This document shows, in pieces, positions 26,531 to 28,734 of a stretch of DNA of 50,228 bases (the stretch's first letter is position 1; every line of letters begins with the position of its first letter). Where the stretch lies: positions 1 through 50,228 of the forward strand of contig CAJOLB010000001.1 in NCBI GenBank assembly GCA_905235385.1, read 5' to 3'. This DNA comes from an uncultured Alphaproteobacteria bacterium. Its GTDB lineage: Bacteria > Pseudomonadota > Alphaproteobacteria > RF32 > CAG-239. The position numbers and the translations under genes are program-made. The notes beneath the pieces were generated by a model, which saw nothing but the letters and a program-made list of their open reading frames with translations, was not told the DNA's origin and did no database searches.

Positions 26531-26761
26531 TTAGCTCTTCACAACGATTTTTGACATTTCTCCAGACACAAAAAAAGACAGAACTTGATTACTATCCTTT
26601 CCTGCTGGTATAGCGACGTAAGAAAAAATGAGATATCTATCAATTTGATGTGTTTGTAATTTTGTTCTTGCTTTATTTTTATCATAAGATATGATGTTTT
26701 TGTACCATTTAGGTGCAAGGCTGTCAGAAGCCTCATACACGAAACGGTGTTTTACATTAAG
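26531..26761 (-). pseudogene. Possible 3' gene remnant
   Basis: Minus-frame peptide LNVKHRFVYEASDSLAPKWYKNIISYDKNKARTKLQTHQIDRYLIFSYVAIPAGKDSNQVLSFFVSGEMSKIVVKS looks protein-like, but only a GTG start is available and a TGA lies just upstream. Confidence 0.3.
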
Positions 26762-26799
26762 GATATAGCATCGTCATTTATGCTCTTTATATTAAAGAA

Positions 26800-26970
26800 C
26801 ATAATAAATATATCCCCGATTTTAATATCTCTTATGGTCGGGGGGCTTTTAGCGAATGTTCAAGGATATATCCCAAAGGCTAAAAGAGTCATTTTTTCGT
26901 GTATGATTTCTGAACTCCCTGACCACCTGACTGGTGGTTGTTTTTTTTATTTTCAGGGAGATTTTTAAAA
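26800..26970 (+). promoter_or_regulatory. Structured 5' leader / candidate cis-regulatory RNA upstream of GT8-Stealth gene
   Basis: Complementary pairs 26808-26815/26864-26871, 26814-26819/26838-26843, 26846-26853/26879-26886, CTCCCTGA 26915-26922/TCAGGGAG 26953-26960 (contains the SD), ACCACC 26922-26927/GGTGGT 26933-26938 followed by T8. Confidence 0.5.
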
Positions 26971-28734
26971 ATGGACATCTTTTTTGCTGTCAACAACGAA
27001 TATGTTTCGAAGCTTTGTGTGACGATTTTTTCGATTTTGGAAAACAATCGACAGGTGCCTGTCTGTTTTTTTCATATTTTAAATACAGATATAACAAATG
27101 AAAGCAAAAAAAAGATTGAAGAGTTGCTCTGTCTATTTTCAAACGGTTATATTGAATATATCAATATTGATACCTCACTTTTTGATAAATTTAAGATGAA
27201 TATTGAATACATTACAAAAGAAACATATTTCAGATATATGATCGCCGAAGTCGCGCCTTATTTAAGCAAATGCCTCTATTTAGATGCAGATATTGCCGTT
27301 AATGGAGATTTATCTTCTCTTTATAATCAGGACATACACGATTTTTACGCTGCCGGCGTAGAAGATTCTTATATTCAAAGCATCAATTACAAAGATAAAT
27401 TGGGATTTAACCCCGAAGATTTATACATAAACGCCGGTGTTCTGCTTCTTAATTTAGAAAACATCAGAAAAGACGGCATCATAAAAAAACTTTTTGAAAA
27501 TACAGCCAAATGGCAAAATAAAATTATGTTTCAAGACCAAGATGTAATTAATATTACTTTCAAAAACAAAATTAAGCCTCTTGACAGTATCTATAATTTC
27601 ATGACAGAAAATGCAAAGACAGAGAAGAACAAACGCAAAAACGCTATTGTTATCCACTATACAGGCAAACGCAAACCTTGGGATTCAGGTTGTCACAACA
27701 AAATGCGTAAAATTTGGTTACGGTATGAAAAAAAATATCAAAAAAGGTCTTGTGGCTTTATTTCTAAAATCAAAAATCTATTTCATCGACAACCAGATTT
27801 TGATATTGATCTTGTCTATTTATGGTGTGACGGAAATGATCCTGCATTCATTAAACGTAAAAATGAAGCCCTTTTAAAAGAAGGAAAGCTTGATATTCAA
27901 GCAACGGCCAACGGACGTTTCAGACAAGTTGATGAGTTAAAATTTTCATTGCGTTCAGTTGAAAAATATATGCCGTGGATTCACCATATTTTTATTGTAA
28001 CCGATAGGCAAGTTCCGAAATGGCTTAATTTAGAGAACAAGAAAATCAGCATTATTGATCATAGCAAAATTTTACCTCAAGAAGTTATTCCGACTTTTAA
28101 TTCATCTGCCATTGAAGGTGCATTGCACAAAATCCCCAACCTTTCGGAACATTTTTTATTTGCTAATGACGACACATTTATCGGAAGAAAAGTTAAACCC
28201 TTATTCTTCTTTACAAAAGATGGAAAAATTATTTTTAGATATAAAAAAGATAAACTCCACCTTGAGAGTTTATATAATAGACAATTGCTTTATACACAAA
28301 ATAAGATGACAGAAAAATTTAATATTTTATACGACTTTTTGCCACACCATAATATCGATTCTTATTTGAAATCAGATTTTGAAATATGTACTGAAATTTT
28401 TAAAACTGAATTTAATGAAACCATCCACCATACATTTCGAAAAGAAACAAGCATTTTAAGGCAAGTTGTTGATTTTTATTCTCTTACGGAAAATCATGCA
28501 AAACCTAAAAATGTCTCTATTAAAAAATGGCAAAAATATTTGATTAGGTATACACCATTTTGTCGTGTTGATTCTTTTTATCAAGGCAACAATCAAAAGT
28601 TACGAAGAATTAAACAATATAATCCTGCACTTTTTTGCATTAATGATACAGAATATTCTTCTGACAAGGATAGGCAGGTTGCTTTTGAATTTTTAAACAA
28701 ACGGTTTCCCTCAAAATCAAGTTTTGAAAAATAA
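26971..28734 (+). CDS. GT8 glycosyltransferase fused to Stealth-type sugar-phosphate transferase
   Basis: GT8: DIFFAVNNEYVSKLCVTIFSIL, LYLDADIAVNGDL, INAGVLLLNL. Stealth: DIDLVYLWCDGNDPAF, RFRQVDELKFSLRSVEKYMPWIHHIFIVTDRQVPKWL, FLFANDDTFI. ATG at 26971 with gggag SD. Confidence 0.88.
   Translation: MDIFFAVNNEYVSKLCVTIFSILENNRQVPVCFFHILNTDITNESKKKIEELLCLFSNGYIEYINIDTSLFDKFKMNIEYITKETYFRYMIAEVAPYLSKCLYLDADIAVNGDLSSLYNQDIHDFYAAGVEDSYIQSINYKDKLGFNPEDLYINAGVLLLNLENIRKDGIIKKLFENTAKWQNKIMFQDQDVINITFKNKIKPLDSIYNFMTENAKTEKNKRKNAIVIHYTGKRKPWDSGCHNKMRKIWLRYEKKYQKRSCGFISKIKNLFHRQPDFDIDLVYLWCDGNDPAFIKRKNEALLKEGKLDIQATANGRFRQVDELKFSLRSVEKYMPWIHHIFIVTDRQVPKWLNLENKKISIIDHSKILPQEVIPTFNSSAIEGALHKIPNLSEHFLFANDDTFIGRKVKPLFFFTKDGKIIFRYKKDKLHLESLYNRQLLYTQNKMTEKFNILYDFLPHHNIDSYLKSDFEICTEIFKTEFNETIHHTFRKETSILRQVVDFYSLTENHAKPKNVSIKKWQKYLIRYTPFCRVDSFYQGNNQKLRRIKQYNPALFCINDTEYSSDKDRQVAFEFLNKRFPSKSSFEK

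Follow-up and report, generated by a model that had tools for sequence, protein, structure and literature searches.

The c-di-GMP-I and c-di-GMP-II riboswitches occur several times per genome, ahead of pili, adhesin, surface-polysaccharide and GGDEF genes, and JUMPstart is included in Rfam. In the repZ leader of IncB and IncI-alpha, a hairpin loop pairs with a distant strand to control expression, and these loops diverge fast between relatives. Among Alphaproteobacteria, SAM-II, serC, suhB, ybhL and speF are terminator or anti-Shine-Dalgarno (anti-SD) riboswitches and RNA elements (PMC1273637). The locus described here resembles the latter, being a structured alphaproteobacterial 5' leader that contains pseudoknots and has an expression platform downstream.

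A sequence-only reading of the window, i.e., the whole 50,228-nt stretch analysed, had proposed an attenuator or riboswitch-style leader of no recognised class at 26800-26970. Covariation among homologous leaders, the check named by that reading itself, was very strong, and no Rfam match was obtained. Both the structure of the leader and its role as a cis-leader are well supported. Furthermore, we consider it probable, from sequence comparison, that the leader represents a previously uncatalogued class of cis-acting pseudoknotted RNA, absent from Rfam and orphan riboswitch-like in kind, acting as a switch in which a core closed by B:C competes with A:B pairing and strand C feeds a terminator or masks the SD.

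Parts of the leader and its double pseudoknot

The full leader comprises ~240 nt (26702-26960). The hairpins delimited by the sequence-only reading stood as its 3' half, and the conserved structure that precedes them over some 100 nt (26702-26800) had been missed. The parts are as follows.

26702-26716, + strand: hairpin H0 (GTACC/GGTGC), 5' edge of the conserved element; position and pairing kept in relatives (full-length alignment of the family: 96% paired, 49 double-change cells)
26717-26732, + strand: hairpin H1 (AAGGCT..AGCC) with loop L1 (TCAGAAG, 26724-26730), from relatives, the full-length alignment and the L1:J test; the Rhizobiales counterpart is GGGG-UGUCGUAA-CCCC
26733-26744, + strand: U, copy-specific strand TCATACACGAAA, complement of X; 12 perfect pairs with 26895-26906, permutation test on 225 copies
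26745-26773, + strand: hairpin H2 (CGGTGTT..AGCATCG); 98% paired, 58 double-change cells
26778-26804, + strand: hairpin H3 (TTATG..CATAA), sequence-variable, from folding; present in relatives in different sequence
26811-26819, + strand: A, strand TATCCCCGA, putative competitor for B; A:B reaches 7 bp or more in 90% of family copies, shuffled sequences doing so in 23%
26836-26845, + strand: B, strand GGTCGGGGGG, predicted partner of A or of C (P1), from core alignment, folding and the A:B comparison
26846-26886, + strand: P2 (26846-26853/26879-26886) topped by P3, the conserved internal loop GAAUGUUCA/AAAG lying between the two; compensatory, both-side changes at 8/8 P2 pairs, 98.3% paired; loop columns nearly invariant
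26887-26908, + strand: hairpin P4 (AGTCA/TGATT), whose loop bears X, TTTCGTGTA, at 26895-26903, from P4 covariation and loop geometry; in the window copy the complementarity of X to U extends past 26903 to 26906
26907-26913, + strand: J, linker TTTCTGA, partner of L1, from the L1:J permutation test
26915-26924, + strand: C, strand CTCCCTGACC, predicted to pair with B (P1) or the SD, its final ACC being the terminator 5' arm; from folding, core alignment and family survey
26922-26948, + strand: intrinsic-terminator hairpin ACCACC..GGTGGT and U-run, from folding, terminator scan and family survey
26953-26960, + strand: Shine-Dalgarno (SD) sequence TCAGGGAG, complementary to C
26971-28734, + strand: controlled gene, encoding a protein with GT8 and Stealth CR1/CR2/CR4 domains (domain scan)

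A string check in the window placed the strings and hairpins of the sequence-only reading where it had reported them: the anti-SD CTCCCTGA at 26915-26922 and the SD; ACCACC-TGACT-GGTGGT at 26922-26938, with the T-run at 26941-26948; and CTTTTAGC (26846-26853) with GCTAAAAG (26879-26886), as well as CCCCGA/TCGGGG. Among relatives, CTTTTAGC/GCTAAAAG, which is P2, was conserved with covariation, and CCCCGA/TCGGGG, which is A:B, was likewise maintained. A third pairing, ATATATCC/GGATATAT, had 8 contiguous pairs in only 1/127 relatives, namely the window copy itself, and is thus a chance match. The proposed exclusion between it and CCCCGA/TCGGGG falls accordingly, the true competition being A:B against B:C, and a local pseudoknot of the ATATATCC/GGATATAT strands with P2 was dropped on the same count.

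The covariation test covered 146 aligned cores with helices P1-P4 (26 pairs). Cells of P1-P4 were paired in 96.8% of cases, against 86.4% in shuffles and 34-54% with registers slid by 1-3, and double-change cells numbered 463 against 143 expected in shuffles (0/500). P4 switches from UCA/UGA to CCG/CGG among copies. Moreover, G-U cells (419) far exceeded A-C cells (31), an asymmetry which argues that plus-strand RNA is under selection, rather than DNA or the antisense. The P2/P3 internal loop, GNAUGUYCA/AAAG (9x4), was nearly invariant, which is the usual sign of a binding site and makes it a putative one here.

Two further pairings, U:X and L1:J, were absent from the sequence-only reading and were found by comparing relatives. 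Over 225 copies, U:X scored 20.5 with its own partner against 14.9 +/- 0.13 when permuted; for L1:J, the gut family gave 14.97 against 9.66 +/- 0.19, and other lineages 13.85 against 11.65 +/- 0.28. RNAalifold, applied to an anchored full-length alignment, recovered U:X (461 double-change cells) and L1:J (137). Since U and X had been set in register by script in this alignment, the permutation tests constitute the independent evidence for U:X. These pairing statistics demonstrate a clasp between two hairpin-plus-tail modules (H1-U and P4-J), with L1 predicted on J and X on U. In most gut-family copies, the P4 loop holds a 3-nt spacer and a 9-bp helix, an arrangement counted in 77 copies, and in many others 0-1 nt and 5-7 bp; as judged by known pseudoknot geometry, P4 and U:X can therefore coexist as an H-type pseudoknot, and mutual exclusion of the two was discarded.

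U and X change faster than any other part. Among 186 X sequences, 175 were distinct, and orthologous leaders near-identical over about 470 nt differed chiefly in U and X, both versions being complementary. For instance, the leaders at L181:3008-3257 and L262:517-765 are 98% identical and accompany lipoproteins 93% identical, with U and X rewritten yet complementary. The leaders of L142 and L162 (98% identical; encoded proteins, 97%) differ in U and X, each complementary, and the related leaders L041/L046 and L036/L037 behave likewise. For pairs at least 90% identical from U to X, X identity averaged no more than 0.5-0.6, random pairs giving 0.40. Within the switch reading, U:X is probably a structural helix without sequence demands, unusually fast-changing; gene conversion among near-identical leaders, together with selection against mismatched U and X, is a possible and mundane route to this diversity. 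It is rather unlikely, although worth stating, that the helix is diversified deliberately or mechanistically, each leader carrying its own 8-9-bp U/X 'tag' with both strands rewritten far faster than the rest. If that were true, a trans-acting RNA may find each surface-protein gene by a separate address, or both arms may undergo templated repair, and families of surface antigens and pilins would be controlled by a locus that is hypervariable at the RNA level.

A related, unlikely reading holds that the same folded leader is read by a protein or by a trans-acting small or antisense RNA instead of a small ligand, with U and X as specificity tags like the kissing loops of plasmid copy-number control. 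One leader common to many unrelated target genes would suit such a reader, and U and X are the fastest-changing strands yet complementary, as specificity determinants should be. However, X is no more different within than between genomes, near-identical X being slightly over-represented within genomes (15 pairs against 6.3 expected), and no common partner gene was seen adjoining the element. Diversification through orthogonality between copies of one genome, also considered, was not supported for that reason, within-genome X being if anything more alike.

Expression platform and proposed switching

In nearly all copies, the start codon lies on the same strand at an almost fixed spacing from C, usually some 37-75 nt downstream of it. 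B:C (P1) was paired in 97.5% of cells; B is nearly invariant, with double changes in only 3/10 B:C pairs, so that the case for B:C and for A:B is mostly one of complementarity. Beyond the family, A:B of at least 7 bp was kept in 74% of copies against 28% of shuffles.

In the window, the anti-SD/terminator hairpin, a claim of the sequence-only reading that was borne out, folds at -20.2 kcal/mol (z = -4.3), with 0/200 shuffles equally good; a terminator-like site was predicted at 26920-26940, the interval 26790-26980 as a whole folds with z = -2.3, and no tRNA or tmRNA was detected within the window. In the gut family, the terminator overlaps C (its last ~4 nt) in 125/128 copies, with a U-run in 119/128. 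In other lineages, a terminator over C is rare, and C is more complementary to its own SD (14.5) than to the SDs of other genes (11.75), although copy-specific C:SD covariation is weak and the anti-SD likeness of C could be general. In Rhizobiales (e.g., L090, L106, L173), C is followed by a conserved hairpin GCGG-GGGCGYA-CCGC with a near-fixed loop instead of a terminator.

In this context, the leader shows two of the traits that mark the riboswitch kind: a conserved, covarying aptamer-like domain within a 5' leader and, at sequence level, exclusive pairings that reach the terminator or the SD. In the switching model favoured here, the clasped core would be closed by P1 (B:C), with C held in P1; B:C would take three bases of the terminator arm (half its stem) and keep C off the SD, leaving the gene ON. 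When the core is unstable, B would refold on A and C would be released, turning the gene OFF, the freed C building the terminator (gut family) and/or masking the SD (other lineages). The likeliest trigger would be a ligand or factor at the conserved internal loop. We infer the exchange of pairings in the cell, the state that is ON and the drive by a ligand or factor from this architecture. Nested folding of the window leader gave probabilities of 0.89 for A:B, 0.90 for U:X and 0.995 for C paired downstream; it favours A:B, with B:C near 0, by a method which cannot score pseudoknots. Thus, the OFF arrangement is the predicted default of the nested fold with pseudoknots ignored.

That the leader is static, i.e., a stable pseudoknotted 5' end (insulating or protecting the mRNA) with a somewhat leaky terminator behind it and no regulated switching, appears improbable. 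The core helices are all compatible with P1 and there is no known ligand, as such a leader would have it; nevertheless, the A strand is kept from Rhizobiales to gut Alphaproteobacteria despite competing with P1, and the near-universal family terminator over C also speaks against it.

Copies, hosts and target genes

A BLASTN search of 26790-26980 against relatives returned many matches per genome, at 70-86% identity. Copies were counted with R1, a covariance model built on the 91 positions of the core, which found 9 full-length copies in this 1.3-Mb genome and the core in 83/101 family genomes, four of them with at least 42 copies; phylum-wide, 24/399 genomes had it, mostly in 1-3 copies each. 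The core, written as a degenerate DNA pattern, matched Rhizobium, Shinella, Mesorhizobium, Agrobacterium, Paracoccus and Roseovarius, and also Sphingomonadaceae, Rickettsiales, Acidobacteria and six viral contigs. Among these contigs (L071-L076), the match in L071 is probably due to chance, and the others resemble true copies. Furthermore, 207 plasmid records bear the core, mostly conjugative and largely rhizobial, and a Rickettsiales MAG (L274-L289) with 19 copies constitutes a second, distant many-copy lineage. Tandem pairs of elements, 119 to ~320 nt apart, were seen in L202:1382-1585, L014 and L054. To explain the element as a dispersed repeat, or as a miniature mobile element landing by chance ahead of genes, is far-fetched, because, although there are many copies per genome and others on conjugative plasmids and viral contigs, start-codon distance and orientation are fixed, gene-independent (MITE-like) placement was not found, the strand-specific G-U pairs and compensatory changes denote selection as an RNA leader, and genomes with a single copy are frequent beyond the gut family.

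In the gut family, the 113 genes scanned downstream included those for BspA-type LRR (28), GT2 (6), SNase (6), HTH_3 (4) and YspA (4) proteins, as well as outer-membrane barrels, opacity proteins and surface antigens (up to 9 per family) and pilin-like Bundlin/PilS (3). Among 54 genes of other lineages we found XRE-type HTH (13), the RovC-type DNA-binding domain (6), TraM (3), ECF sigma (3), GGDEF, BRO-N and AntA, the last two being antirepressor domains. Pilin-like genes containing GFSLVELSIVLVILGLLTGG follow several of the copies in the Rickettsiales MAG. Surface variation, together with regulators of mobile elements, is the theme that runs through these targets. Since relatives stand ahead of numerous gene families, we rejected a single-gene attenuator, as in the device for the GT8-Stealth gene alone that had been proposed at first; the leader instead belongs to a multi-copy class. 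On conjugative rhizobial plasmids, the element lies ahead of traM, adjoining traR (L188, L266), a placement that suggests RNA-level control in quorum-sensing-regulated conjugation.

Regarding the signal, a DAC domain was found in 0/7 element-rich genomes, which makes c-di-AMP (ydaO-type function) unlikely, and this candidate ligand was rejected for want of a DAC gene. A GGDEF protein was present in 6/7 genomes tested and absent from G013, listed as 100% complete and bearing 13 copies, which tends to disfavour c-di-GMP. RelA/SpoT was detected in 7/7 genomes tested.

Comparison with described systems

At gathering threshold, the 4227 families of Rfam 15 gave 0 matches in the window, and at relaxed E-value only chance-level ones, the best being sRNA-Xcc1 (18.7 bits against a cutoff of 53); 16 representative relatives likewise had no Rfam match at the element. 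The text of the literature covered, that of the 26-genome, 50-genome and human-microbiome surveys included, yielded no fitting motif, although an unnamed entry may stand in figures or supplementary motif tables. Within that coverage, the leader is set off by two features for which no counterpart was found, namely the hypervariable, self-complementary helix and the double pseudoknot with its reciprocal pairings. Should the proposed class hold, it would add to the regulatory RNAs a large orphan class, strongly supported and missing from Rfam, with hosts that span cultured Rhizobium, Agrobacterium and Paracoccus and uncultured gut Alphaproteobacteria. In the latter, the leader precedes a large share of the repertoire of variable surface genes (those for BspA-type LRR proteins, outer-membrane barrels, pilins and glycosyltransferases), and U and X pose a directly testable question, namely by what means and for what reason the two strands change in concert.

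Unlike SAM-II, serC, suhB, ybhL and speF, this leader has no Rfam match, serves surface proteins and regulators rather than a single pathway, and combines many copies per genome with hypervariable pseudoknot strands. With the c-di-GMP-I and c-di-GMP-II riboswitches it shares its multi-copy nature and its surface-gene and GGDEF targets; however, it differs from them in lacking an Rfam match and in occurring 13 times in a complete genome without a GGDEF protein. As in JUMPstart/ops, a leader element is common to polysaccharide and surface genes, although the structure is different and, again, without an Rfam match. Finally, the repZ leaders of IncB and IncI-alpha may be similar in their long-range loop pairing and fast-diverging loop sequences, whereas the leader described here is not that of a replication gene, precedes dozens of different genes, came with no sign of an antisense RNA, and has two reciprocal loop-tail pairings.
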